64,000 nucleotides of DNA from Bradyrhizobium canariense (GTDB lineage: Bacteria > Pseudomonadota > Alphaproteobacteria > Rhizobiales > Xanthobacteraceae). Under the pieces are notes generated by a model. It was not told where the DNA came from. It searched no databases and saw nothing but the letters and a program-made list of their open reading frames with translations. The DNA lies in assembly GCF_900105125.1 (NCBI RefSeq), contig NZ_LT629750.1:4925001-4989000 (forward strand), in the 5' to 3' direction. Of this stretch, positions 24,951-51,102 are shown piece by piece (the first letter of the stretch is position 1; every line of letters starts with the position of its first letter). Position numbers and translations under genes: made by a program.

Positions 24951-25537
24951 ACCCGGTTCCAGAATTAACCTGCGACAGCGACATCAAGCTTAATACGCGA
25001 TCGCGATTGCGGCGGCTCGTTGCGGTTCTATCCTCAACGCAGGTCGCGCGAGGCCACCCCAGGCCATCCCACAACCCAGAACGCGCGATTAGGGGGTGCA
25101 GCTCGGTTTGTGAGCCGCATCCCCGCCCCATTGTCCACAAATCCCCGAATCCTCAACGAGGGCAGTCCTGCTGATCGAGCGAACCGGGAAAGTGAAAGCT
25201 GGCGCGCGATCGGTGACGATCGAACAGTGGCGAACAAGGGAGAACATCCTACTGGCGGAGAGAGTGTCCAAAGCAGTATATATCACCGTCGGTTGCACAC
25301 GTTCGCCGATGTTCAAGAAACACTTATACCAAAGGCACGAACTGTGCGCCGGACCTCTCGCGCGTTCGCTCCAATTCGCGAGCAATCTTCACGCAAATAT
25401 GGGCTGGAGTATGGGCGCAAACGTTCGACGGAAGGTTGGGGATGGTTGGAAATATTCCTAGCGCACAAGCACCATTATTCTTTCGACCTGTCGCTCCAAA
25501 TACCAAATCATCATTCGCGATAGTTCTTCGAAGGCAG
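24951..25537. other. Gene-free stretch at the left boundary of the island
   Basis: About 590 bases without a convincing gene; ORFs here lack start signals and family features. It contains the candidate left attachment repeat (25253-25266). Left of that repeat lies the decayed chromosomal segment, right of it the island genes. Confidence 0.55.
25253..25266. repeat. Candidate left attachment site (copy of the tRNA-Ser 3' end)
   Basis: The 14 bases TGGCGGAGAGAGTG are identical, in the same orientation, to 51013-51026. There they form the CCA end, discriminator, acceptor 3' strand and first T-arm bases of tRNA-Ser. A chance 14-base match to that very position in 64 kb is unlikely. No further identity extends on either side. 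Confidence 0.65.
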
Positions 25538-29272: not shown

Positions 29273-32200
29273 TTGATCGCCGGCAACCTCTTCACACGCG
29301 ATTACCTCGTCGAAGGCATCACGCGTTGCCAGGAATGGCTGGCGCTTCCTGACGCCGCCGTCACCGACTTGAAGGAGAAGCTGCTCAAAAGCGTGCAAAA
29401 CTTGCTGGCGATTCACCGCCCGAACGAGGCACAAACTGAAAAGACGTTGATCTATCCCGTCCTTGAGCTTCTTGGCTGGAATGATATCGAGGTTCAACAG
29501 ATCCTTTCATCTAAAGGCCGCAAGCAGGTCCCGGACGCTCTGCTGTTTGCAAACCAGCAAGCCCGGAATGGCGCGGTTGCGGAGAAAGATCATTGGAAAC
29601 GATATCAGCATGGATTGGCCGTTGTAGAGGCAAAGCGCTGGGCGCGTGCTCTTGACCGATCCGACAAAAGCGAAGCGCACGAAGAAGGCGTGCCTTCCAA
29701 CCAAATGCTGCAATACCTGAGCCGAGTAGATATTCAGACCTCCGGCAAGGTGCGTCTCGGAATTCTGACCAACGGCGTCAAATGGCGTCTCTATTTTCAA
29801 GGAGCGCTTTCGGTCTCCGAGGATTTTTTCGAGATCGATCTAGGCAAAGCGCTCGAGCTACCCGGCCACGAGCTTGACCTCGTCGAACGCGCTAATCCGC
29901 TCCTGACACCTCTTCATTGTCTGCGGCTGTTTGCGTTGATGTTTCGCAAGCAAGCATTTCTCCCGGTTGACGGCGCGCGCACCTTCCATGACCTGGCGCG
30001 GGACGAAGGCAAGAATTGGGAAGCCAGAGTCACTCGTGATCTTTCCCATCTCGTCTTTCACGACCTGTATCCGGGCCTCGTCGCTGCCATCCATCGTCAC
30101 GACCCTAATCGCCCGGCGGAAGTCGACGCGCCCTATCTTGAAAGCGTACGCCAGAGTTCTCTCATACTTCTCTATCGGCTTCTTTTCGTCGTGTACGCGG
30201 AAGACCGTGAACTTCTCCCGGACAGGCAAGAACCTTATAAGTCCTATTCGCTTACGACCATGCGCGGGGAGATTGCCGACCGCTTGGCCAAGGGGCTGGT
30301 CTTTTCTTCCACCATTGCCACGTTCTGGCCTAAACTGACAGCCGTATTCAGGGCAATCTCGGAAGGCGACGATGCACTAGGTATACCGCCCTATAACGGC
30401 GGACTGTTTGCCCGCGACAGTGCTTCGCTCCTTGCCCAGATTGAACTTCCTGACGCCGTTATCGCGCATCTGATCTTCAAGCTTTCGCACCGGGAAGAAG
30501 CGCCCGGAGTATTTCGCTATATCAACTACCGTGATCTCGGTGTTCAGCAGCTCGGCACAATCTACGAACGCACCCTCGAATACGGGCTTCGATACGATCC
30601 GACCAGTAACACCGTCGTCGTTGACGCTGACGACACGGCCCGCCATGAATCCGGCAGCTACTACACGCCCGATAGCCTCGTTTCACTAATCATCGAAAAA
30701 ACAGTCGGCCCGTTTGTTGAGGAGCGTCTCGCGACGTTTAGGGTGGAGGCGGCCAAGCTTGCAAAGGACAAACGGCCCGTCGATAGCCGACTTGCACTTC
30801 TCCAGGGCTTTGATCCCGCCCTTCAAATTCTTGAACTGCGTATTTGCGATCCCGCGATGGGTTCGGGCCACTTCCTCGTCAACCTCGTGGACTACCTCGC
30901 CGACAAGGCTCTCGCTGCCATTGCAGAAGCCGAATTAATTGTTGATTGGAGCGACAAGCCTTATCGGTCACCGGTCGTCGCGAGCATCGAACAGACACGC
31001 GTCGATATCATCCGTCAAGCAACTCTTCATAAGTGGCCCTTCGTGGTTGAGCATCTCGACGACCGGCACATTGTGAGGCGAACGATCCTCAAGCGCTGCA
31101 TTTATGGTGTCGATAAGAATCCGATGGCCGTAGAGTTGGCGAAAGTTGCTCTGTGGCTTCATACCTTCACAGTAGGCGCACCGCTTTCATTTCTGGACCA
31201 TCATCTTCGTTGCGGCAACTCCTTGTTCGGTTTTTGGATAAGGGAGGCGATGGATCACCTTACGGGTTGGGGTGGTCAGCTTCTGATAAATGAGCCCATC
31301 CAAAAGGCCATGGCTCAAGCGCTCGCGATGCAGAAGCTGGAGCGCGTGAACGACATTGATATTGCGGAAGTGCATCAATCCAAGACGCTGTTTGATGGCA
31401 TCGAAAGCGAGACGCGCCCGTTCAACAGCTTCGTGAAGCTGCTTTATGCGCTCGACTGGCTGAAGCTCGACAAGGCCGACGAAACATCCGTAAAGAGCTG
31501 GCTTGATGGCCAGTATGGAGACCCCTTCGACATTGCGCGCGGGCGTCTCACGCTTGGTCCGCCGCTGGAAAATGGCGGAACTGCTCAATCAAGAGACGTG
31601 CTTGATCAGATTCCCGGCTCGGGGAAGGCCAATGCAAGCCGGTTTGCGGGCATTTTGTTGCGCGCGCGGGCCCTGGTGCTCAAGGAAGCCTTTCACAACT
31701 GGCAAGTCGCGTTTCCTGGTGTCTGGACACAATGGGAGAGCCTGGATCTCCGGGGTGGCTTTCACGCGGTGATCGGCAACCCACCGTATGTAAGGCAAGA
31801 GCTAATCCGCCCATATAAGGCCGCTCTCGAAAAATTTTACGAGACCTTTGCCGGCCAAGCTGACCTGTACGTTTACTTCTACGAACAAGGCCTGAAGCTT
31901 CTTAAGCCCGGCGGGCGGCTGTCGTATGTCGTGACGAACAAATGGATGCGTGCCGATTATGCGGAACGGCTGCGCACAATGTTTGAAACAAAGGCTTGGG
32001 TCGAATTCGTTGCAGATTTTGGCCACGCCAAGAAATTCTTTCCCGATGCCGACGTATTCCCTTCGGTACTCGTCCTCCAAAAGCCGACTGAAGCCTTGCC
32101 ACCGGAGAACACCGTGGTGTGTTCGATGCCGCGTGACGACGTCCCGGACAAAAACCTTGAGCAAGCCGTCGCAAACCCTGCGTACAATTTCCTTCTGCCG

Positions 32201-33400
32201 CGGCTTCACTTCACGCGCGACACGTGGGTCCTCGACCGGCCCGAAGGCATTGCGCTGCTGAACAAAGTCCGGGAGCGCGGGCAGCCACTGAAGGCAGTCA
32301 TAGGCGCCGATCCTCTCTACGGTATCAAGACCGGTTACAACGAAGCCTTTATCGTTGATGCGCCCACGCGTGACCGACTTATCAGCGCAGCCCCAGAGTC
32401 CGCCAGCCTGTTCCGGCCGTACTTACGCGGCCAAGACATCTCGCGTTGGTCTTGCCCGGATACCGGTCTCTTCATGATCGTGATGAAATCGAGCAGCGAT
32501 CATCCCTGGCCCTGGGCGAGCGCGCCCGACGAACCATCAGCGGAACGGATTTTTGAGGCGACATATCCCGCGCTGTACCGCCATTTCAAGGTTTTCGAAG
32601 AGATTCCCGACCCCCGAGGCGGTCGCCCAAAAGGGCTGCGCCACCGTGAAGATCAAGGCCGGTATTGGTGGGAATTGCGGCCCTGTGCCTACTACGCGTT
32701 GTTTGATGCTCCGAAGACGCTATACGTTGATATAGCGTGGACGCCGTCGTTCCTCGTAGACACACGTGGACGCTTTACGAACAACACCTGCTATTTTCTG
32801 CCATCCGCTGCACCCGATGTCGCAGCATCGCTCAATGCGCCGATCGGCTGGTGGTACGCTTGGAGGAAAGCCCAGCATGGCAAAGACGAAGCCTTGCGGT
32901 TCTTTACGTCCTTCATGGAATCCTATCCTGTCGCGCCACTGGATGAAGCTGCGCGGGAAGAGGTCGGCACCCTTGTCGCACGTTCATCCACTCTGGTGGA
33001 GCAGTACCAGGTCGCGGACCACAATTTGGCTGAGTGGCTCAGGCTCGAGTTTGAGCTGAAAGGATTGAAGCCAGCGCTGCTGTCGGCTTCGTTGCTCGAT
33101 GCGGATCGCTTTTTAAGCGCCGTTCGGGACTTCATACCGAAAAAGCGGAAGCTGTCTGTTGCTCAGCTTGCGGAACTGAAGCGCGAATATGCCACTACGG
33201 TTGAACCGGCGAGAAACATGCGTTTGAAGGTGCTCGCTTCGGAGCGCCGCTTGTCCGATTTGGTAAATCAGGCCTATGGCCTGACTGCCGATGAAGTTGA
33301 GCTGATGTGGCGTACGGCACCACCGCGCATGCCATTTACGCCGCAGGGTTACAGTGCGCCAGATACCGGCCTCGCTAAAGGCATTGAACTTGGCGAATAA
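29273..33400 (+). CDS. Eco57I-type restriction-modification enzyme (type IIG-like)
   Basis: 1,375 residues in one chain. The N-terminus has a PD-(D/E)xK nuclease pattern (KQVPDALLF, then LAVVEAKRWARALD). The centre is an N6-adenine methyltransferase: motif I DPAMGSGHFLVN near 520 and NPPYVRQE near 830. The C-terminal part resembles TaqI/Eco57I specificity domains (LLNKVRERGQPL, SLFRPYLRGQDISRW). Such enzymes cut and methylate the same site with no separate subunits. The only start with an acceptable signal is TTG at 29273. It is alone on the plus strand, converging with the protease gene, and may act as an independent defence gene in the island. A BREX PglX role is unlikely because no other BREX gene is present. 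Confidence 0.85.
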   Translation: MIAGNLFTRDYLVEGITRCQEWLALPDAAVTDLKEKLLKSVQNLLAIHRPNEAQTEKTLIYPVLELLGWNDIEVQQILSSKGRKQVPDALLFANQQARNGAVAEKDHWKRYQHGLAVVEAKRWARALDRSDKSEAHEEGVPSNQMLQYLSRVDIQTSGKVRLGILTNGVKWRLYFQGALSVSEDFFEIDLGKALELPGHELDLVERANPLLTPLHCLRLFALMFRKQAFLPVDGARTFHDLARDEGKNWEARVTRDLSHLVFHDLYPGLVAAIHRHDPNRPAEVDAPYLESVRQSSLILLYRLLFVVYAEDRELLPDRQEPYKSYSLTTMRGEIADRLAKGLVFSSTIATFWPKLTAVFRAISEGDDALGIPPYNGGLFARDSASLLAQIELPDAVIAHLIFKLSHREEAPGVFRYINYRDLGVQQLGTIYERTLEYGLRYDPTSNTVVVDADDTARHESGSYYTPDSLVSLIIEKTVGPFVEERLATFRVEAAKLAKDKRPVDSRLALLQGFDPALQILELRICDPAMGSGHFLVNLVDYLADKALAAIAEAELIVDWSDKPYRSPVVASIEQTRVDIIRQATLHKWPFVVEHLDDRHIVRRTILKRCIYGVDKNPMAVELAKVALWLHTFTVGAPLSFLDHHLRCGNSLFGFWIREAMDHLTGWGGQLLINEPIQKAMAQALAMQKLERVNDIDIAEVHQSKTLFDGIESETRPFNSFVKLLYALDWLKLDKADETSVKSWLDGQYGDPFDIARGRLTLGPPLENGGTAQSRDVLDQIPGSGKANASRFAGILLRARALVLKEAFHNWQVAFPGVWTQWESLDLRGGFHAVIGNPPYVRQELIRPYKAALEKFYETFAGQADLYVYFYEQGLKLLKPGGRLSYVVTNKWMRADYAERLRTMFETKAWVEFVADFGHAKKFFPDADVFPSVLVLQKPTEALPPENTVVCSMPRDDVPDKNLEQAVANPAYNFLLPRLHFTRDTWVLDRPEGIALLNKVRERGQPLKAVIGADPLYGIKTGYNEAFIVDAPTRDRLISAAPESASLFRPYLRGQDISRWSCPDTGLFMIVMKSSSDHPWPWASAPDEPSAERIFEATYPALYRHFKVFEEIPDPRGGRPKGLRHREDQGRYWWELRPCAYYALFDAPKTLYVDIAWTPSFLVDTRGRFTNNTCYFLPSAAPDVAASLNAPIGWWYAWRKAQHGKDEALRFFTSFMESYPVAPLDEAAREEVGTLVARSSTLVEQYQVADHNLAEWLRLEFELKGLKPALLSASLLDADRFLSAVRDFIPKKRKLSVAQLAELKREYATTVEPARNMRLKVLASERRLSDLVNQAYGLTADEVELMWRTAPPRMPFTPQGYSAPDTGLAKGIELGE

Positions 33401-33415
33401 GGGATCACACACGGC

Positions 33416-35641
33416 CTACACATCAATCGGAATCTCAACAACAGGACGCAGGGCTTCGAGTTGCCGAGCGTATTTCCGCACCACCTTGTCGTAGAGATCG
33501 CCAAGATGCTTCGCGTGGACACTGATAACAAGGGCGTAAGGCAACTCTTCTTTCGGCGCAAAATTACGGCCGTCCTGGCGCGCGTTGTAGTGAATATCGA
33601 GTACGGGATTACGAAGGGTCTTTCCGAGAAATGAAACGCGCGTGTGTAGGCAGTTTTCCCATTTCCACGCGTCACGGCGTAGTTCGTCTTCCATCAAGCC
33701 GCTTTGTGTCTTGCCAAAGAAACTCTTGCTATCAGCATGCACCTGTTTGGGGTCTTTGCGCTTCTGATCATGCGGCCTAAAAGTTGGCTCAAGGCCGGCG
33801 CGCGTATAGTTGCCGGGGTGGTGCGGATCAACGCCGGTCGGATAGCACAGCGTTGCGGTGATGGTGACCTTGCCGGGAATGGTGCCCGACGGAATCGGAA
33901 TGGGCGCTCGAATATAGCGCGTCGGTGCGATGGTGCCTTGGTAGACAACCCGCACGGTGTCATCGTCGCAAAGAACAATGTCCTGCACCGAACGGGCGAC
34001 GCGACCACGCCCTATTTCTTCGCAGGGAAAGGCAGACGCTTCTGTCGTGTGGATTAGGAGCGACCTTATCGCCAGTATGCTTAACGTGTCACCGAAATGC
34101 GCGCGCAGCCCAGCGCCGAGGCGCAGCACGGACGGCGCGGAGAAAGAGGTCCCTTCGGTCGCTTCGAGCCCAAACGCTTTTCCTTCGTTGAGAACGATGA
34201 AAGGCCGCTGGAGACAGCCGCCGAACTCAACAAAGTCCGGTTTGACGACGCCGGGACTGCGACCGGGCCCAACCGAGCTATACGTGCACCGCTGCCAGGG
34301 TGTCTCGTGGCTATCGCAGGCTCCCACCGCTAGGGCGTTCACGCAGTCGGCTGGCACCTGGATGCGGTTCAAGCCATCCTTGGCAGATCCGTCGCCCCCA
34401 TTGCCGACGGCGATAGTCGCAAGTGTCGTACCGCGCGAAAGACGATCATCGATAACGGCCGTCCACGCATGCACATCATCATCCTCCACCGGGAGAAGCG
34501 GGCCGATACTTAAATTGACAAACTGATAATCCTTCTCGACCAAAACCTGATCGATACGGCCAAGCACTTCGTAAAGTTCGTGAGGATTTTGGCCCAACGC
34601 TGCCCTGTCGAGAACCCGGTAATGATCGGCCGATGCATAGGGGCGCTGGAGCGGCTTGGTCGGATCGATGTGGCCGAACAGGAAGGCGGATGACACGCCA
34701 ACACCGTGCTTCTGAAAGTCATCCAGGGGGCTTCCGATGCCCGGTGGTTCGATAGCTCTTACCCACTTGCTGATCGGATGCCCTTTCGGAAATCCCCCGT
34801 CAAAAATCGCTACGCGAATCTTGGGATCAATCGGGCCGGTATCGGGTAATTGGATAGCTTCCATGGGTACGCGTGAGGATCGGAAGCTTGGACGCAAGAT
34901 TCGCAGGGTTGGCATTTGCCGCAAGGCCCGCACGGGTGTGAATGTCGCGATGCGGTCGGCAAGTTCGACAGGAGCTTCCAGTTCCACGAAGCAAAGTCCG
35001 CCTGCGGCAAAGCGGCGGTCCAGCGGTTGATCAATCCCGATTTCACCAAGGTAGTGTTTGAATTGCGTAACGACGCTATTCGCACCGCTTCCGCCATCGC
35101 TGTGAAGAACAGCTTCAAGGACGACATTTCCTTTTTTCGGAAGCCGGCCTTTGATCTTGTCCCGGGCCGTCGGTGCCGCGACCTCCTCAATCGTGGGCAG
35201 GTCGCTGGCGGCGGCAGTGTCCTCGCGCAAATTTGGCAGCGAAGAGCGCCAGGCGCGGAAAGCTGACCGCGGACCCATTACGAACAACTCTGTTGTGATT
35301 GTTTCTTCGGGTTCGCGGCCTTTGGAGCGCTTTTCCGGTGTGATCCGGCGCGGGCGGCTGCCGACCGGTTCCAAGCCAACCGATTCAAACAGCTTTTCAG
35401 GGAAATACGACTTGGCAATATACTCGGGATTGAGCGTGATCGTCGCAACGGCACGGTCGTTTGGGCAGGCGGCATCCGGCAACTGGTCGATACCCCTCAC
35501 AACGCGCGCGAGCATCGGCGCGATGCGCTCTCTTGCTTCCCTGAACGTATAAGGGTGGCTTTTCGGGCCGCCGCCACGCACGCCGGCAACATCTTCAACA
35601 AGCCGTTCGCCTTTGCCTAAAAGGAAATTGCGTTTCGTCAT
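33416..35641 (-). CDS. ietS: Subtilisin-like serine protease of an IetAS-type pair
   Basis: 741 residues. The S8 triad is visible: Asp in IRVAIFDGGFP, His in KHGVGVSSAFL, and Ser in EGTSFSAPSVLRLGAGLRA. About 270 N-terminal residues precede the catalytic domain and could be inhibitory or substrate-binding. There is no signal peptide, so it acts in the cytoplasm. It follows an AAA ATPase with an ATGA overlap; this arrangement is the IetAS defence/plasmid-retention pair, first noted on a tumour-inducing plasmid. Here it also follows a ubiquitin-like operon on the same strand, so it may act on tagged or untagged proteins. The symbol is used by analogy. Confidence 0.8.
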   Translation of the reverse strand: MTKRNFLLGKGERLVEDVAGVRGGGPKSHPYTFREARERIAPMLARVVRGIDQLPDAACPNDRAVATITLNPEYIAKSYFPEKLFESVGLEPVGSRPRRITPEKRSKGREPEETITTELFVMGPRSAFRAWRSSLPNLREDTAAASDLPTIEEVAAPTARDKIKGRLPKKGNVVLEAVLHSDGGSGANSVVTQFKHYLGEIGIDQPLDRRFAAGGLCFVELEAPVELADRIATFTPVRALRQMPTLRILRPSFRSSRVPMEAIQLPDTGPIDPKIRVAIFDGGFPKGHPISKWVRAIEPPGIGSPLDDFQKHGVGVSSAFLFGHIDPTKPLQRPYASADHYRVLDRAALGQNPHELYEVLGRIDQVLVEKDYQFVNLSIGPLLPVEDDDVHAWTAVIDDRLSRGTTLATIAVGNGGDGSAKDGLNRIQVPADCVNALAVGACDSHETPWQRCTYSSVGPGRSPGVVKPDFVEFGGCLQRPFIVLNEGKAFGLEATEGTSFSAPSVLRLGAGLRAHFGDTLSILAIRSLLIHTTEASAFPCEEIGRGRVARSVQDIVLCDDDTVRVVYQGTIAPTRYIRAPIPIPSGTIPGKVTITATLCYPTGVDPHHPGNYTRAGLEPTFRPHDQKRKDPKQVHADSKSFFGKTQSGLMEDELRRDAWKWENCLHTRVSFLGKTLRNPVLDIHYNARQDGRNFAPKEELPYALVISVHAKHLGDLYDKVVRKYARQLEALRPVVEIPIDV

Positions 35642-36783
35642 GACGAATCTCTCTTTTCAGAGCGCGTCGGCACGCGCTTCCGCGCGGCGCGAACACGGAT
35701 GGTGTCGCGGGCAATACCTGTCAGCTCACGGGCTTTACGTTGTGACAACAGCCCTTGGTTCACAATGGCCGCCGCAAGATGAATGCGCCTCGTCTTCGGA
35801 AGCGATTTGTTCGTCAACAGACCGGCGAGATGTTCCTCAAGCGGCGTATGGCCTAAAGCTGCCCCGCGACGTGCAGTCGACAAATCACGTTCGATGTCGC
35901 TGAAGGACCGCCCGGTGAATGCGAGGGCGAGCAGTCCGCTCCACTCCTTGGTCGCAGGAAAATACGGCCCGAGGCGTCCTTCGATAAAGCTGTGAATGGC
36001 ATCCTGATCGGGAAGCGGAAATTCAATGTGCAGTTCAAACCGGCGCCATATCGCGGGGTCAAGAAGGTCGGGGTGGTTAGTAGCTGCAAGCAGAACGCCG
36101 GAAGATGGCCAGTCATCAATTTGCTGGATGAGCACGGTTACAAGCCGTTTCAGTTCGCCGATCTCGCCGTAATCGTCGCGGCGCTTGGCGATGGCGTCGA
36201 GTTCGTCCAGCAACAAGATGCAATCAATGGTCTTGGCATATTCAAGGACATGACGGAGGTTGCTGCCGGTTCGGCCAAGCAAGCTGCTCATGACGGCGGC
36301 AAGGTCGAGAATGAGGAGTGGACGTTTCAGCTCCCTTGCTAACCATCGCGCGGCCATCGTTTTGCCAACGCCGGGAGGGCCGACAAAGAGCGCGGCCCGC
36401 ATGGGATCAAGCCCGGCACGGACAAGCGCCTGCGGATTCCGGCGTTCCTGGACAATTTGCTGCAATGAAGTTGCAAGGGCCGGCGCGAACACCGGCTCAT
36501 GTTCGAGGAACGGCTCTGCCTCGACGCGCATAAGATGTAGCCGCGAGTCGATATCGACGGGGAGTGGCACTTCGGCTTGCTGCCGCAGGGGCGATGCGTG
36601 CGAAGGCAGTTCATGCAAGAGCGCGGTCAAGGCATCCGCGAATTGCGGTACGACGGCGTGATAACGCTTGGCAGCGCGGCGTAAGATAACCTGCACGTCT
36701 TGAGGACGGCCGGACAACGCGATGCGCGCGAGTTGGAGAAAATCGGCTTCGATGTCAGTCTTTTTGTTGTTCTCTGGGGTCAT
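35638..36783 (-). CDS. ietA: AAA ATPase of an IetAS-type pair
   Basis: 381 residues from the Met at 36783; upstream codons to 36963 run across the intergenic part. Walker A is GPPGVGKT (about 135-142), Walker B ILLLDELDAIAKRRDDYG (about 189-206), then a second-region motif LAATNHPDLLDPAIWRRFELHIEFPLP with the sensor and arginine-finger region. It is a classic AAA domain like those that remodel or unfold proteins. A C-terminal basic segment (RKARELTGIARDTIRVRAARKR) resembles a DNA-binding helix-turn-helix. Four-base overlap with the protease gene. It probably controls or feeds the protease. Confidence 0.83.
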   Translation of the reverse strand: MTPENNKKTDIEADFLQLARIALSGRPQDVQVILRRAAKRYHAVVPQFADALTALLHELPSHASPLRQQAEVPLPVDIDSRLHLMRVEAEPFLEHEPVFAPALATSLQQIVQERRNPQALVRAGLDPMRAALFVGPPGVGKTMAARWLARELKRPLLILDLAAVMSSLLGRTGSNLRHVLEYAKTIDCILLLDELDAIAKRRDDYGEIGELKRLVTVLIQQIDDWPSSGVLLAATNHPDLLDPAIWRRFELHIEFPLPDQDAIHSFIEGRLGPYFPATKEWSGLLALAFTGRSFSDIERDLSTARRGAALGHTPLEEHLAGLLTNKSLPKTRRIHLAAAIVNQGLLSQRKARELTGIARDTIRVRAARKRVPTRSEKRDSS

Positions 36784-36959
36784 GTGACTCGCGTGGCAGA
36801 AGAAAATACCGGGCGAGCCACCGTAAGGGTGGGCGGACGATTTTACAAAGGCCGATTTCGAAGTCGTCCACAGATGTGAATTGTAACGTATATTCATACG
36901 TTTAGATATGGACGAGATTGGCCACTTAAACTGAAACTGTTCTTTCTCCTGCCCCGTGG
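36784..36959 (-). promoter_or_regulatory. Gap before ietA with an inverted repeat
   Basis: 176 bases between the E1-like gene and the AAA gene. A perfect inverted repeat with seven-base arms AACGTAT/ATACGTT lies at 36885-36902, in AT-rich sequence. It could be an operator or promoter for ietAS alone, or a spacer inside one long transcript. No clear terminator separates the two parts. Confidence 0.45.
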
Positions 36960-37856
36960 TCAATTGGGCCTCTTACGGAGGCGATTCCACATACGGCGGT
37001 ACCACGGCGCAATCCGAGGCGGCAGGATTGTGGGCCTTGGAGCAAAATTCTGGGTGCGGATGTCGAAGAGCGGGTCGCCGGTCTCGTCGGGCGGGTGATG
37101 CGGGCACACATGGTTCTTCAGCAGTTCCATACGCTGATTGCGGGTGACGGTTCCCTTGTTGCCGTCATAGTCGAGGAAGACAAAGGTCGGCGGATTAGGA
37201 TACCAGGGCGTTAATACCTGCGTGAGCAGGCCAACCGCCGTGGATGCAAGCACGCCGTTAGACCATACCACTTGCGGGCGCGAGCCTGCTGCGCCGTACC
37301 GTTTGGCTTCCTGCTCTAGTCTTTCATCGGTAATGAATCCGCTGCAGCGCATGCAGGGTGCGCCCGGGATGGACAGGATTACCTGACCGCTGACCAGAAA
37401 GCCCTTTTTGCCGAGATCATGGACATCCATGCCGATGTCGATGTAGGGGATCAGGTGCTTGCGGGCGAAGCGTTCAAGTTGCTCGCGCTCCTTGAAGCCA
37501 TCGACCGCTCCCAAGATGACATCGCACAGCTTGAGATCGTCGACCGCAGCGTGCCAATCCTTCTGAATCGAGAGGATGCGGGCGTGTGGCTGAAGGCCGC
37601 GGATTAGCCGCTCGGCAATGGTGACCTTTGTAAGGCTCACAGCGACGTCTGCCAGTGTACCGCCGATCAATCGGTTGGTATTGGTATCTTCGATAACGTC
37701 CGGATCAGCATTCACATAACCGCCAACGCCCATATGGGCGGTCTGTTGCGCGATGTGCGAGCCGCCGCCGCCGAGCCCGACGATCCCGATCACGGCGGCA
37801 TCCAGAACGGCGTCGCTTTGGGGACCAAGGAAGCTTTGGCGGTCAAGACGGCTCAT
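36960..37856 (-). CDS. E1-like ThiF-family adenylyltransferase
   Basis: 298 residues from the Met at 37856 (ATGA overlap with the JAMM gene; the TTG at 37868 is less likely). The nucleotide site is complete: GLGGGGSH, DPDVIEDTNTNR, a lysine in LTKV, and GAVDG. CxxC (CMRC, about 168-171) and CPHH (about 251) could hold zinc. At the place where E1 enzymes have the transfer cysteine I see YGAAGSRPQVVW with no Cys, so thioester transfer by the usual residue seems impossible. The protein probably activates the multi-ubiquitin protein encoded upstream in the same operon. A serine nearby is a candidate substitute, which is inference. Confidence 0.85.
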   Translation of the reverse strand: MSRLDRQSFLGPQSDAVLDAAVIGIVGLGGGGSHIAQQTAHMGVGGYVNADPDVIEDTNTNRLIGGTLADVAVSLTKVTIAERLIRGLQPHARILSIQKDWHAAVDDLKLCDVILGAVDGFKEREQLERFARKHLIPYIDIGMDVHDLGKKGFLVSGQVILSIPGAPCMRCSGFITDERLEQEAKRYGAAGSRPQVVWSNGVLASTAVGLLTQVLTPWYPNPPTFVFLDYDGNKGTVTRNQRMELLKNHVCPHHPPDETGDPLFDIRTQNFAPRPTILPPRIAPWYRRMWNRLRKRPN

Positions 37857-38356
37857 ATCGTGCTCCAACTGCGAAGTGGCATGCCAACCTCACTGAATTT
37901 GGCGATAAAGGGCTGGGGAGACGTACGGTCGATCCACACTTGGCCGAACGCAGACTTGTCGCTGAGTACGATGGCGCCGTGCACGCTATGCGGGGCAACC
38001 GAAACGAAATTCGGCACGAACTTGCCGTTTTCACGAATATCGATGCCGCTGAAGCCCGGGATGCCCTGGCCGCCATGCGTGTGCACGTGGAAGATGGCGA
38101 CGCGGTCATCCATTCCCCATTGGCGTGCGCGGCGAATAGCTCCCGCGCTCATCATCGCGCCGACGCTTGGATCCGGAAGGTATTCGTCTTCACGTACGGG
38201 ACGGTATTCCCGGGCCAAGATGAGAAGTTCGTCGTGCGCGGCGGCCAATCCTGCGGCAATAAAGCCAACGCGCTCATGTGCGAACGGGTGCGGGCGCCGC
38301 AAATCAATGCGGATCGTGGTGAGCAGGGCACTCGTGACTTTGAAGCGAATTTTCAT
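37853..38356 (-). CDS. JAMM/MPN metalloprotease (Mov34-like deubiquitinase)
   Basis: About 167 residues from the Met at 38356, which overlaps the E2-like gene by ATGA. The JAMM motif is intact: Glu in HERVGFIAAG, then HVHTHGGQGIPGFSGID (HxH, eight residues, SxxD). JAB-type proteases trim ubiquitin-like precursors or release them from targets. The multi-ubiquitin protein ends CGGSS, so removing two residues would expose Gly-Gly. Order in the operon is Ubl, E2, JAB, E1, the same order as the Bil (bacterial ISG15-like) operons. Confidence 0.83.
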   Translation of the reverse strand: MKIRFKVTSALLTTIRIDLRRPHPFAHERVGFIAAGLAAAHDELLILAREYRPVREDEYLPDPSVGAMMSAGAIRRARQWGMDDRVAIFHVHTHGGQGIPGFSGIDIRENGKFVPNFVSVAPHSVHGAIVLSDKSAFGQVWIDRTSPQPFIAKFSEVGMPLRSWSTI

Positions 38357-38688
38357 GCGACGGCTCGCAGGTGAGCGGATAGCATTTGGGTCCAGCGCAT
38401 CGAGGCCGGCACGTGGTTCCATGACGGCGCCCACCAATTGCGCTCGACCACGCGGTGCTGATTCCAGTTGCCCGCGCGGCCTTGAATTTGGCGCTCGAAG
38501 AAAAGGCGCGTGACGTAGCCGGAATGCGCGAAGGGCACCAGTAACAGGTCCATCTTGAACGGCTTATCGCCAGCGGTGAACCCGAAGCCCGGCAGCAAGG
38601 CCACGGGCTGGCCGCCCTCCTTGAGGAGGACGGCGTCAGCGTGCATGACTTTGAGATTGGCGAACTCTTTGCTGGCGACGTCGCTCAC
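38353..38688 (-). CDS. E2/UBC-like protein (prokaryotic E2 family E type), no cysteine
   Basis: 111 residues starting GTG in a GTGA overlap with the upstream gene. The strand-turn-strand core reads VALLPGFGFTAGDKPFKMDLLLVPF, then FFERQI and the conserved WNQHRVVERNWWAPSWNHVPASMRWTQMLSAHL, the pattern of the E2/UBC family associated with multi-ubiquitin. There is no cysteine anywhere in the chain, so the usual thioester cannot form. It may use another residue or act as a binding platform. Alternatives such as a plain adaptor protein cannot be excluded. Confidence 0.72.
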   Translation of the reverse strand: MSDVASKEFANLKVMHADAVLLKEGGQPVALLPGFGFTAGDKPFKMDLLLVPFAHSGYVTRLFFERQIQGRAGNWNQHRVVERNWWAPSWNHVPASMRWTQMLSAHLRAVA

Positions 38689-39395
38689 GAAGAGCCTCCG
38701 CAGGGAACCTGTTCAAAGAACTTCATTCCCTCCTTTACCTTGAGCTTGGCGCCGGGCTTGAGCGGCGTGAGCTGCCCCTCGTCGTTAATGAATTCGAGGA
38801 CGTAGCCCTCCTGCACGCCGAACTTCTGCTTGAGCTGCTCGGTCGTGTAGGTGCCGCGCGCGATTTCGCGCGGCTCATTCTCGTAGAAGACCGTGATCAG
38901 CCGCTTCTCGGTGTGCAAGTGCTCGGTTCCGGCCTGACCCAGGTCGAGAACGTCATTCAGCTTCAGATCGATGTCGTTACCATCGCGCTCTAGGACCAGA
39001 ACCTCGTCCTCGCGGACCTGGCAGATGACGCGCAGTTCAGGCTCGGGGATCTTCTCCACGCCCCACTCGAAGCCGTGTCCGTTATTAGTGAAGCGGAAGA
39101 TACGGTCGCTCTTGAAGGCGCGAAACACTTCGGTTCCTTCGGCCCGCAAGTCCACCGTCTCGTCGAGGCCCACCGAGCGGCTGCTGTGGGTCAGAAGCTG
39201 GATCAGCACATAGTCGCTGGCCGGCTCCAAATCCGCCTTGTCGAGAACGTGTTCCCCCTTCGGCATGGCTTCCGAGAACTTCACGGTCACGCCGTTGACC
39301 GTGGTGGAGAAATGCCCCTGCGCGTCGGGACCGCGCCCGCGTTGGCCTTTGACACCGTCATCGCGGCCTTGGCCGCCTGTAACCACATTTTCCAT
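38685..39395 (-). CDS. Multi-ubiquitin protein (about three ubiquitin-like domains)
   Basis: 236 residues from the Met at 39395 (Met at 39401 also possible, with AAAAGG upstream). After a Gly-rich tail come about three beta-grasp repeats, starting near residues 30, 105 and 168. The last has VFYENEPREIARGTYTTEQLKQKF and ends KFFEQVPCGGSS. The terminal GGSS would need trimming to a diglycine end, which the JAMM protease may do. It is the first gene of the E1/E2/JAMM operon, and the natural modifier for it. Members of this multi-ubiquitin family occur with these enzymes in several bacteria, mainly of unknown role. Confidence 0.82.
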   Translation of the reverse strand: MENVVTGGQGRDDGVKGQRGRGPDAQGHFSTTVNGVTVKFSEAMPKGEHVLDKADLEPASDYVLIQLLTHSSRSVGLDETVDLRAEGTEVFRAFKSDRIFRFTNNGHGFEWGVEKIPEPELRVICQVREDEVLVLERDGNDIDLKLNDVLDLGQAGTEHLHTEKRLITVFYENEPREIARGTYTTEQLKQKFGVQEGYVLEFINDEGQLTPLKPGAKLKVKEGMKFFEQVPCGGSS

Positions 39396-39448
39396 CTTCA
39401 TTACCTTTTCGTCTGCCCCCCGGCCCCATGCCGAAGTGATGGTGATAA

Positions 39449-39520
39449 GATATAGTGGCATGCTAGGTTTGTCAAGCATCTACTGGGCACGCTTGACATT
39501 CTTATCAAATGAGCTAAATA
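39449..39520. promoter_or_regulatory. Back-to-back promoters sharing a symmetrical operator
   Basis: TTGACA at 39493-39498 with TAAATA at 39515-39520 (16-bp spacing) faces right toward the XRE gene. On the other strand TTGACA at 39475-39470 with TATATC at 39454-39449 (15-bp spacing) faces left toward the ubiquitin-like operon. The two -35 boxes lie inside an inverted repeat with arms TGTCAAGC (39470-39477) and GCTTGACA (39491-39498). A repressor bound there would block both. Confidence 0.65.
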
Positions 39521-39556: not shown

Positions 39557-39940
39557 ATGGCCAAGAAGAGCGTGGGGGCGGAGATCAAGCTCACGCTTGG
39601 ACAATTTCTCGCCTCAATCCGTGAAGATCGCCAGCTCTCTCAGCGCGATGTCGAGAAAGCGACCAACAAAATTGTTTCGAACGCTTACCTAAGCCAGATC
39701 GAAAACGATCAAATCAAAAGACCAAGTCCCAATATCCTGCACGCACTCGCCGAGCTATACGCCGTTAGCTACGAGAACTTAATGGAACGCGCAGGCTTTG
39801 TTGCGCCTACACGATCCCGCAGCACCGCCGAACAGCGGCATGGGCGCGTTGCAACATTCGCCGAGCATAATTTGACGGGTGAGGAAGAGGCCGAGCTTGT
39901 AAAGTTTCTAGGTTATCTACGCAGCAGGAAAAAGCCCTAG
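39557..39940 (+). CDS. XRE-family helix-turn-helix regulator
   Basis: 127 residues with a strong ribosome site (GGAGGAG). The HTH is clear: LGQFLASIREDRQLSQRDVEKAT and SNAYLSQIENDQIKRPSPNILHALAELY. A linker and a C-terminal helix (LTGEEEAELVKFLGYLRSRKK) follow. It overlaps the metalloprotease gene by one base (TAGTG). This pair resembles the ImmR/ImmA and DdrO/IrrE arrangement: the regulator represses and the metalloprotease cleaves it on a signal. The shared divergent promoter suggests it governs the ubiquitin-like operon as well as itself. Confidence 0.88.
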   Translation: MAKKSVGAEIKLTLGQFLASIREDRQLSQRDVEKATNKIVSNAYLSQIENDQIKRPSPNILHALAELYAVSYENLMERAGFVAPTRSRSTAEQRHGRVATFAEHNLTGEEEAELVKFLGYLRSRKKP

Positions 39941-40854
39941 TGGCCAAAGCCGACGACAGCAGTCTCGACCCCGAGCAGTTAGGCGCCGTGCAGTTGGCTG
40001 CACGGCGCGCTTTAGACCGAGCCACTGGATGGGGCGTCTTTCCTACGCCTATCCCGGATATCCTTGAAGCAGCGAAACTGAAAATTGCGCCCGCGAGCGC
40101 GTTCGACCCGCGGCGGATCGTCGAATACCTGATGGGCAAAGCAGAGCATGCGGCAGAGGTATTGAAGTCCGCGATCTCCAAGGTGTTTGGTATTTATGAC
40201 GCCGACGAAAGCCTCATCCACATCGATCACACGGTGCATGCATCGAAGCAGAACTTTCTCAAGTTACACGAAGCCGGCCACCACGAGCTTCCTACGCACC
40301 GCAAGCTATTCCGCATTTTCCAGGATTGTGAAAAGAACCTCGCTCCGGATATCGCCGACCTTTTCGAGCGCGAGGCCAATAACTTTGCTCGCTTCGTTCT
40401 CTTTCAAGGCGACGGCTACCGCGATATGGCTGCCGACCATAAATTCGAAATCAAGACGCCGATGAAGCTCGCCAGCAAATTCGGTGCGTCGGTCTACGCG
40501 TCGTGCCGTGAGTTTGCTCGGACCCATCACCGGGCCTGCGCCGTGTATGTACTTGAGCCGATTAAGTACTGCGAACGCACAGGCGCGCGCGCTGATGTCC
40601 GCAGGATCGAAACCTCAGAATCGTTTCGACATCAGTTCGGACAACCTGCGGAGCAGGTAATTACACTTGATCATTCACTCGGACGTGTGTTGCCAGTGGG
40701 CCGACGGATGACCCGACCGACCACCATCTCAATCACGGACCGAAACGGTCAAGCCCATGAGTGTGTCGCGGAAGCCTTCGACACTACTTACAATGTTTTG
40801 ATCTTGGTTTATCCCGTTAAAGCGCTTACCGCGTCTCGTTTCATACTCAACTAA
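39940..40854 (+). CDS. ImmA/IrrE-family metallopeptidase
   Basis: 304 residues starting at the GTG that overlaps the XRE stop. The zinc site is HEAGHHELPTH (about residue 111) with a downstream glutamate in DLFEREANNFARFVLFQG. This is the COG2856 core that cleaves XRE repressors. The remaining 140 residues contain VYVLEPIKYCERTGARADVRR, likely a signal-sensing region as in IrrE. It most likely inactivates the partner repressor and switches on the divergent operon when infection or DNA damage is sensed; the signal is unknown. Confidence 0.85.
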   Translation: MAKADDSSLDPEQLGAVQLAARRALDRATGWGVFPTPIPDILEAAKLKIAPASAFDPRRIVEYLMGKAEHAAEVLKSAISKVFGIYDADESLIHIDHTVHASKQNFLKLHEAGHHELPTHRKLFRIFQDCEKNLAPDIADLFEREANNFARFVLFQGDGYRDMAADHKFEIKTPMKLASKFGASVYASCREFARTHHRACAVYVLEPIKYCERTGARADVRRIETSESFRHQFGQPAEQVITLDHSLGRVLPVGRRMTRPTTISITDRNGQAHECVAEAFDTTYNVLILVYPVKALTASRFILN

Positions 40855-41227: not shown

Positions 41228-42433
41228 ATGGCTCGCATACGGGTGCTCACCGCGCTCAAGATCAAACGGAATCTCAAACCGGGAATGTATGCCGATGGGC
41301 TTGGGCTTTACCTGAAGGTCCGCCCCGGCAATTCCAAGAGCTGGATTTTCCGGTATCGCACTGGCGGCAAGCTGCGGGATATGGGTCTTGGCCCGTTTCA
41401 TACCGTGTCGCTCGCCGAGGCCCGCGAGAAGGCGGAGGTCTGCCGGGTCATGCGCCTCAAGGGCCTCGATCCGCTGAATGAGCGCCTCAAGGAGCAGCAA
41501 GCCAAGACAATCGAAGCGATTGAGACCATCACCTTCGAGAAGTGCGCCGAGGGCTACATCGCCGCCCACAAGGCCGGCTGGAAGAACGGCAAACATGCCG
41601 ACCAATGGACGGCGACGCTTCAGACCTATGTTTATCCCGTCTTCAAGGACAAGCCGGTTGCCGCCATCGACGACACACTGGTCCTGAAGGTGTTGCAGCC
41701 GATCTGGAGGGACAAGACCGAGACGGCGTCACGGCTTCGTGGCAGGATCGAACGCATTCTCGATTGGGCTCGTGTCATGAAATACCGCGCGGGCGAAAAC
41801 CCGGCACGGTGGAAGGGGCACCTCGATCATCTTCTGCCGAAGCGTTCGAAAGTCGCGGCCATCGTCCATCACCCCGCCCTGCCGATCGACGAGACGCCGG
41901 GCTTCTTCCAGATTTTGCGACAGGAAGCGACGGTCGTTGCGCGTGCGTTCGAGTTCTGCATTCTCAACGCCACGCGCACCAACGAAGCTATGGGCATGCG
42001 CTGGGACGAGTATGACGAACAGGCTCAGCTCTGGACGGTGCCCGGCGTCCGCATGAAGGCTGGTCGCGATCACCGCGTTCCGCTGGCCCAGCGATCTCAG
42101 CGCATTCTTGCCCAGATGCAGGAAATCCGCACGGGTCAATTCGTCTTTCCCGGAGGCGTCCAGGAGCGGCCGCTCAGCTCTATGGCCTTCCTGATGCTGT
42201 TGCGCCGCCTTGAGCGCAAAGACATCACCGCCCACGGCTTCCGCTCGACCTTCCGCGACTGGGCGGCTGAACGAACCGACTTCTCGAACGAAGTCGTCGA
42301 AATGGCGCTAGCTCACACCATCAGCAACAAGGTCGAGGCCGCCTATCGGCGTGGCGACCTGTTCGACAAACGCCGGCAGCTCGCCGAGGCATGGGCCGCG
42401 TTCTGCGCCGGGACGGCTCCTTCGAAGCCCTGA
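41228..42433 (+). CDS. Tyrosine-type integrase (P4-like, DUF4102 arm domain)
   Basis: 401 residues. The N-terminus is the arm-binding DUF4102 domain (GLGLYLKVRPGNSKSWIFRYR). The catalytic domain holds Arg in NATRTNEAMGMRW, HGFRSTFRDW, the third His in LAHTISNKVEAAYRRGDL, and the nucleophile Tyr in AYRRG. It catalyses integration and, with a recombination directionality factor, excision. Integrases of this type usually sit beside a tRNA 3' end. Here the nearest such end (tRNA-Ser, 51013) is 8.6 kb to the right, so the island may be composite or rearranged. Confidence 0.9.
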   Translation: MARIRVLTALKIKRNLKPGMYADGLGLYLKVRPGNSKSWIFRYRTGGKLRDMGLGPFHTVSLAEAREKAEVCRVMRLKGLDPLNERLKEQQAKTIEAIETITFEKCAEGYIAAHKAGWKNGKHADQWTATLQTYVYPVFKDKPVAAIDDTLVLKVLQPIWRDKTETASRLRGRIERILDWARVMKYRAGENPARWKGHLDHLLPKRSKVAAIVHHPALPIDETPGFFQILRQEATVVARAFEFCILNATRTNEAMGMRWDEYDEQAQLWTVPGVRMKAGRDHRVPLAQRSQRILAQMQEIRTGQFVFPGGVQERPLSSMAFLMLLRRLERKDITAHGFRSTFRDWAAERTDFSNEVVEMALAHTISNKVEAAYRRGDLFDKRRQLAEAWAAFCAGTAPSKP

Positions 42434-51012: not shown

Positions 51013-51026
51013 TGGCGGAGAGAGTG
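51013..51026. repeat. Candidate right attachment site in the tRNA 3' end
   Basis: Direct repeat of 25253-25266 (14 bases identical). It covers CCA, discriminator, the 3' acceptor strand and the first T-arm bases, a typical crossover position for tyrosine integrases. Confidence 0.65.
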
Positions 51027-51102
51027 GGATTCGAACCCACGGTACGGTTTCCCGCACACACGCTTTCCAAGCGTGCGCCTTAAGCCACTCGGCCATCTCT
51101 CC
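51013..51102 (-). tRNA. tRNA-Ser (GGA)
   Basis: 90 bases with encoded CCA. The acceptor stem GGAGAGA/TCTCTCC, D-arm GCCGAGTGGC, anticodon stem CACGC/GCGTG with loop TTGGAAA (anticodon GGA), a long variable arm and TTCGAATCC T-loop are all visible. Its 3' end is the inferred integration site of the island. Confidence 0.97.

Follow-up and report, generated by a model that had tools for sequence, protein, structure and literature searches.

The 64,000-nucleotide (nt) stretch of the Bradyrhizobium canariense genome analysed here (contig NZ_LT629750.1, positions 4,925,001 to 4,989,000; the window) carries a cassette that joins a predicted Bub-type ubiquitin-like operon to an AAA ATPase and subtilisin-like protease pair related to IetAS. 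On the minus strand lie, in order, a bubA-like multi-ubiquitin gene (38685-39395; 236 residues, C-terminus ...PCGGSS), a bubB-like gene for a protein of E2/UEV fold (38353-38688; 111 residues, with W75, W85, S89 and H106 invariant), a gene for a JAMM/JAB metallopeptidase-like protein (37853-38356; 167 residues), a bubC-like gene for an E1-like ThiF adenylyltransferase (36960-37856; 298 residues), an ietA-like AAA ATPase gene (35638-36783; 381 residues, Walker A and B intact) and an ietS-like gene for an S8 subtilisin-like protease (33416-35641; 741 residues, triad D281/H312/S499, with N414). The junctions are overlaps of 4, 4 and 4 nt, then a 176-nt gap between E1 and ietA (36784-36959), then another 4-nt overlap, and rechecking the coordinates reproduced exactly the six genes, order, overlaps and gap listed in a sequence-only reading of this DNA. 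The span drawn by that reading missed two genes of the conserved unit on the plus strand, a capH-like XRE-family repressor gene divergent from the operon (39557-39940) and a capP-like ImmA/IrrE (M78) metallopeptidase gene with a HEAGH motif (39940-40854); the cassette comprises eight genes, four Bub, two IetAS and the divergent XRE/ImmA pair. The multi-ubiquitin frame can also be opened from an ATG at 39479, and we prefer the start at 39395 because the extension would contain a promoter-like TTGACA-N17-TATCTT (39475-39447) and the annotated plasmid homologue at locus L113 is only 705 nt long. The putative Bub promoter region (39447-39498, minus strand) contains this site and, overlapping it, the inverted repeat TGTCAAGC-N13-GCTTGACA.

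The multi-ubiquitin protein matches Pfam Multi_ubiq (PF14452; 9.3e-20, 71 bits against a cut-off of 24.5) and multi-ubiquitin-like (multi-Ubl) proteins in the PDB (8u38, 9d5b); the strand-helix order of its model gives three beta-grasp units, and its G-x-S-S terminus is present in all 17 aligned rows. Neither the E2-like nor the JAMM protein matched a Pfam family. The former has an E2/UEV fold by predicted structure and no cysteine, as expected of a Bub member (E2 proteins of Bub systems act through a serine oxyester); the latter carries the residues HTH-x8-S-x2-D plus the E of HERVGF, kept across 18 rows. The E1 protein matches Pfam ThiF (7.4e-23, 81.4 bits), with Citrobacter BubCD (9ea4, 1.1e-10) as its best PDB match, and lies beside the JAB gene, which is assigned by motif only. 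The best structural or sequence matches of the Bub proteins are solved BubB and BubCD. Judged from sequence and predicted fold, the four-gene block is a Bub-type (type 6e) operon with predicted ubiquitin-like conjugation activity. Operon type 6e is described, in a portion of PMC1779556, as a multi-Ubl protein, a Cys-less E2/RWD-like protein, a JAB and an E1. The window operon resembles Bub and type 6e of Iyer 2006 in these four components and in its regulator genes, CapW or CapH+CapP being frequent at Bub operons; it differs in having separate JAB and E1 genes and in placing IetAS, instead of a DUF6527 gene, after E1. The window E1 gave no match in a phage search. The same genome, a single contig of 7.84 Mb, holds a second Bub operon (L046, G000:C1:4425446-4425619) with XRE, short multi-ubiquitin, E2-like, JAB and E1 genes and no IetAS.

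The sequence-only reading likened the ATPase and protease to IetAS, and the matches bear this out: Pfam AAA (1.3e-30) and PADLOC IetA (8e-76, 253.9 bits) for the former, Pfam Peptidase_S8 (1e-14) and PADLOC IetS (8e-38, 128.2 bits) for the latter. Because both fall below the NCBIfam equivalog cut-offs for IteA and IteS (230.8 bits against 510 for the first, 99.2 against 900 for the second), we regard the pair as diverged IetAS relatives rather than the defined equivalog. The Walker residues of IetA and the Asp-His-Ser triad of IetS are each kept in 16 of 16 rows. A helix-turn-helix (HTH)-like motif at the IetA C-terminus is weak in the window copy and clear in L056 (4.7e-6), and the best solved relatives of IetA are mostly Cdc48/p97-type unfoldases, a generic likeness. 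As in IetAS of pTiC58 and sgiAT of SGI1, an AAA ATPase gene is followed by an S8 protease gene; the window pair differs in being diverged and in standing behind a Bub operon. An excerpt of PMC5006074 describes sgiAT, an IetA/IetS relative, as a functional toxin-antitoxin (TA) system that promotes genomic island maintenance, with the AAA protein as antitoxin and the S8-like protease as toxin. In an excerpt of PMC10286901, ietAS is named in a table of anti-phage systems and ubiquitin-like defence is named elsewhere. The window genome also has a second, unlinked IetAS (L126, G000:C1:5859286-5860452) of the other IetA subfamily.

Relatives were gathered by searching genomes, plasmids and contigs, and joined Bub and IetAS fall into four groups. 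Group A (the window, L071-L077, L113 and L114) has IetAS immediately behind E1 on the same strand, with S8, Walker and JAMM residues intact throughout, and the nearest cassette is that of a Bradyrhizobium metagenome-assembled genome (L071, E1 95% identical). Group B (L056, L087, L094, L095 and the fragment L162) shows the gene order of group A, with DUF6527 separating E1 from IetA in L056 and L095 and a Prok-E2_E type E2 in L056; its identity to the window is 34-36% in E1 and 35% in IetA. By BLASTP the window and L056 are 34% identical in E1, 35% in IetA, 23% in IetS and 27% in the multi-ubiquitin protein, and their E2 and JAMM proteins are without significant similarity. In group C (L121, L155, L156) IetAS is convergent with a JAB-E1 Bub operon, and in group D (L082) it lies on the opposite strand. 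All 45 pairs of group A cassettes align, with summed lengths of at least 5,498 nt. Their 4-kb flanks, compared for nine loci (L076 has none), are related by blastn downstream between the window and L071 and on both sides between L077 and L114, the remaining blastn matches being at most 236 nt; with tblastx, L077/L113 and L113/L114 also match weakly upstream, at about 50 bits. In group B the cassettes can be aligned along about 8 kb, or along the fragment in the case of L162. Their flanks have 718 nt in common between L087 and L095 and otherwise match over no more than about 150 nt; the downstream flanks of L056 and L095 are shorter than 300 nt. Group C is less informative on this point because some flanking sequence is shared. 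By these alignments the cassette is a unit of co-inheritance set in largely unrelated flanks.

Adjacent to the unit, a type IIG-like restriction-methyltransferase gene (29273-33400, plus strand) ends 15 nt from ietS; we place it outside the cassette because it lies in the flank common to L071 only. The 3' end of a tRNA-Ser(gga) gene at 51013-51102 (51013-51026, 14 nt) is repeated exactly at 25253-25266, and the two copies may be the attachment sites at either end of an island of about 26 kb. This putative island holds the cassette and an integrase-like gene (41228-42433).

How often the two systems adjoin depends on where one looks. Multi_ubiq was found in 33 of 397 genomes in a survey of the order and in 15 of 398 in a draw across the phylum. 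Among the matches listed, the order draw gave 44 IetA matches of at least 200 bits, and seven genomes carry Multi_ubiq together with IetA at that score; the two are adjacent in two of these (the window's and G245) and apart in three, and the Bub contigs of G224 and G380 are too short to tell. If the genes were placed uniformly, about 0.0005 joins within 10 kb would be expected for each Bub locus; the join thus greatly exceeds random placement, yet it is a minority arrangement. A targeted E1 search, biased in that its query alignment was built from two joined loci, placed IetA and IetS near 11 of 42 E1 loci in genome contigs (L071-L077, L082, L087, L094, L095). Both halves are present in five of 20 plasmid regions (L113, L114, L121, L155, L156); L162 has a partial E1 with IetAS, in eight regions there are Bub genes or just an E1, with IetAS missing, and six have IetAS without Bub. 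At E1 identities of at least 79%, IetAS accompanies E1 in 7/7 genome loci and 2/2 plasmids. Co-occurrence across genomes, which the sequence-only reading had proposed as a check, is real and recurrent but confined to a minority of Bub operons.

Besides IetAS, the families that recur after E1 (90 loci, crude gene calling) are DUF6527 (a cluster of 46), an APH-like family (4) and one related long-gene pair. The APH-like gene, a candidate add-on module, follows the Bub E1 at L082:6777-8393 (TCAD9-like), L122:7833-9317, L038:6446-7951 and L044:10140-11630. A small gene after the Bub E1 at L083:11019-11504 has a HEAGH motif and a weak FtsH-type M41 match, L079 has one gene without a Pfam match and one helicase-like gene after E1, and the tails of L033 and L065 are MFS-like and HipA-like.

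In the IetA tree (57 rows, 38 of them unjoined; best hit per locus at 140 bits or more, with L128 left out as the same locus as L056), groups A, B and C each form a single clade amid unjoined IetA, and joined or unjoined status takes four changes, at least three of them forced by starred branches. The E1 tree, built by a quick method from 76 rows of which 58 are unjoined, likewise takes four, with four forced. It leaves out 15 loci that are near-copies, fragments or far outgroups (L128, L162, L097, L107, L109-L112, L090, L091, L099, L101, L103, L105, L108), as well as E1 matches of 180 residues or fewer. The "no Bub" label of L125-L154 derives from survey match coordinates, not from neighbourhood sequence. 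On the IetA tree, L097 and L109 fall together as a distant outgroup. The IetA-like hit of L058 was rejected as an IetA, with an end branch of 5.45 and no place among the matches listed for PDLC02196 in the order search. Since the arrangements differ and two IetA subfamilies are involved, separate joinings are favoured, and Bub and IetAS seem to have been joined more than once; the position of group D is unsure because of long branches (L082, L158, L058).

The two halves differ in their apparent control. The XRE protein matches HTH_31 (1.1e-11) and the ImmA-like protein matches Peptidase_M78 (2.3e-5) and PADLOC capP (3.7e-13). The XRE gene is present in nine of ten group A loci, the sequence of L076 ending before its place, and the ImmA-like gene of L075 is divided into two frames. 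A small HTH repressor and an HExxH ImmA-like protease, divergent from the operon, make up the gene arrangement of CapH+CapP, although the PADLOC capH match is weak (3.6e-4) and the regulation is read from the genes. In an excerpt of PMC13373217, 219 of 544 Bub operons are under CapH+CapP or CapW control. Because of this divergent repressor and protease pair, the Bub operon is probably induced by DNA damage through CapH/CapP. Its promoter region contains a perfect repeat of at least 8 nt in six of the nine group A loci that have the region, a repeat unlike that in the ietA gap; the 2 promoter-like sites near the Bub start do not exceed the number in shuffled sequence (mean 2.8).

The gap before ietA contains a conserved candidate operator, GTGGACGA-N23-TCGTCCGC (36871-36833, minus strand), whose arm centres are separated by 31 nt, close to three turns of the helix, and a promoter-like TTGTAA (36848-36843) N17 TACGGT (36825-36820), with the right arm of the operator in its spacer. 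Arms at 23- or 24-nt spacing stand upstream of IetA in 16 of 17 loci of the window subfamily, L158 being without them. The search scored by motif likeness comprised 15 of these loci, L150 and L158 having been added without motif scoring; it found the arms in 15/15, spaced by 23 nt (24 in group C), with complementarity of 8/8 in five, 7/8 in seven and 6/8 in three. An unscored search (180 nt, same spacing) returned the operator as the best repeat in 12 of the 15 and in L150 (CCGGACGA/TCGTCCGC), and not in L073, L074, L121 and L158. Shuffles match its complementarity in 0-25 of 100 per locus for 13 loci, except L155 (77 of 100). Single loci are therefore weak evidence, and it is the recurrence of letters, spacing and place that counts. 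The operator is altered on both arms in L114 and L120. It is present at the standalone IetAS of L120 and of L157, an actinobacterium, and was not found in group B, which has the other IetA subfamily. In L120 (6854-10351), a standalone window-type IetAS, the changes on both arms are a sign of selection on the repeat. The C-terminal HTH-like motif makes IetA a candidate autorepressor, and Bub and IetAS are likely transcribed independently.

Three other features of the gap were set aside. The sequence-only reading placed a candidate operator at 36885-36902, but this palindrome, AACGTAT-GAAT-ATACGTT, is not conserved even in the closest relative L071, the conserved element being the one at 36871-36833. 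An open frame from TTG that spans the gap (36963-36784) was judged noncoding, since the IetA frame stops short of E1 in L073, L075, L077 and L114. The half-site GTGGACGA by itself carries no weight, with 8 window copies against 2.4 expected.

What calls for explanation is the identity of the genes, the fixed cassette, its spread amid largely unrelated flanks, the recurrent pairing and the separate control region of IetAS. The account to which we give an even chance is that of a mobile composite defence cassette whose two halves cooperate, with IetS as the executioner protease. The first part would be the Bub conjugation operon, probably switched on by DNA damage under its divergent CapH/CapP-like pair. 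The second would be IetAS, governed by a promoter and operator of its own, and here IetA may restrain or drive IetS. Bub conjugation, or an infection that induces Bub, could shift the balance between IetA and IetS, and IetS would then act as the executioner in infected cells; the Bub tag would not have to mark proteins for degradation.

Cooperation of the two halves is plausible, and several observations weigh against it. Besides the window, one of 34 Bub neighbourhoods from the order had both IetA and IetS (L056); these 34 include L045, in which the models found no Bub gene, and L032 and L059, on contigs shorter than 5 kb. None of ten new Bub neighbourhoods from the phylum draw had IetAS (L170 spanning only 3.4 kb), which makes one in 44 for both samples together, and IetAS occurs without Bub at standalone loci. 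The conserved operator-promoter, being present in joined and standalone loci alike, marks IetAS as an autonomous module. In comparison with six relatives, three of them from group C beside Bub, the IetA and IetS of joined loci contain no extra segment of three residues or more; in comparison with three standalone relatives they contain not one extra column. This is compatible with binding that needs no added sequence. In group B, ietS is damaged in two of five loci, L087 (6289-8832) and L162 (7998-8864), being broken into several frames or shortened; such breakage may be the expected fate of a toxic gene. The trees are unrooted, and a change counted on them may be either a gain or a loss. Co-transfer may also reflect island life, both halves being mobile-element genes.

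A possible but less probable account is that IetAS is a TA-like stabiliser, or an independent defence, carried along with Bub and having no biochemical contact with it, and that it would keep the cassette in the population. It fits the relative sgiAT, a functional TA that maintains a genomic island in the published excerpt (PMC5006074), the possession of an operator-promoter by window-subfamily IetAS whether joined or not, and an orientation that varies from the same strand in groups A and B to convergent in C and opposite in D; it accommodates less easily that in the separate lineages A and B IetAS follows the E1 block immediately and in the same orientation, and that few other families recur after E1 (DUF6527, APH-like and one long-gene pair, with crude gene calling).

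The sequence-only reading proposed a scheme in which BubA-conjugated proteins would be recognised and unfolded by IetA and degraded by IetS, which we consider unlikely. A Cdc48/p97-like AAA ATPase and a protease co-inherited beside a conjugation system invite the idea, and the grouping of tagging enzymes with an AAA ATPase and a protease resembles that of the Pup-proteasome and ubiquitin-proteasome systems; the window protease, however, is subtilisin-like and not a proteasome. The AAA similarity is generic, IetA and IetS have gained no segment over their relatives, IetAS has its own promoter and operator and is missing from most sampled Bub loci, and the AAA protein is the antitoxin in the TA data of the published excerpt (PMC5006074); no result spoke for a tag feeding IetAS. 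Since there is no gained segment and the published relative is a TA pair, we rate IetS as a trigger or executioner above tagging for degradation. That BubA conjugates are read by IetA, making IetS a tag-dependent protease without a proteasome, assembled more than once, is likewise improbable in our judgement. Chance adjacency in a defence island, which the sequence-only reading had named as its refutation, is very improbable, for although both families ride on mobile elements and type IIG-like restriction and integrase-like genes adjoin the cassette, its limits are conserved amid largely unrelated flanks and the pairing occurs in several lineages.

Bub, IetAS and CapH/CapP are each already known; a recurrent union of Bub with IetAS was not found in the literature searched, which did not cover the main Bub papers. 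The repeated pairing of a Bub subtype with a protease module supplies a concrete candidate for a downstream partner, and the association makes it worthwhile to test whether tagging and proteolysis are functionally linked. If the halves are uncoupled, the cassette would be a clear example of a defence system that carries its own stabiliser. If they are coupled, tagging and proteolysis would have been joined from ready-made parts, which would bear on the origin of ubiquitin-protease coupling.

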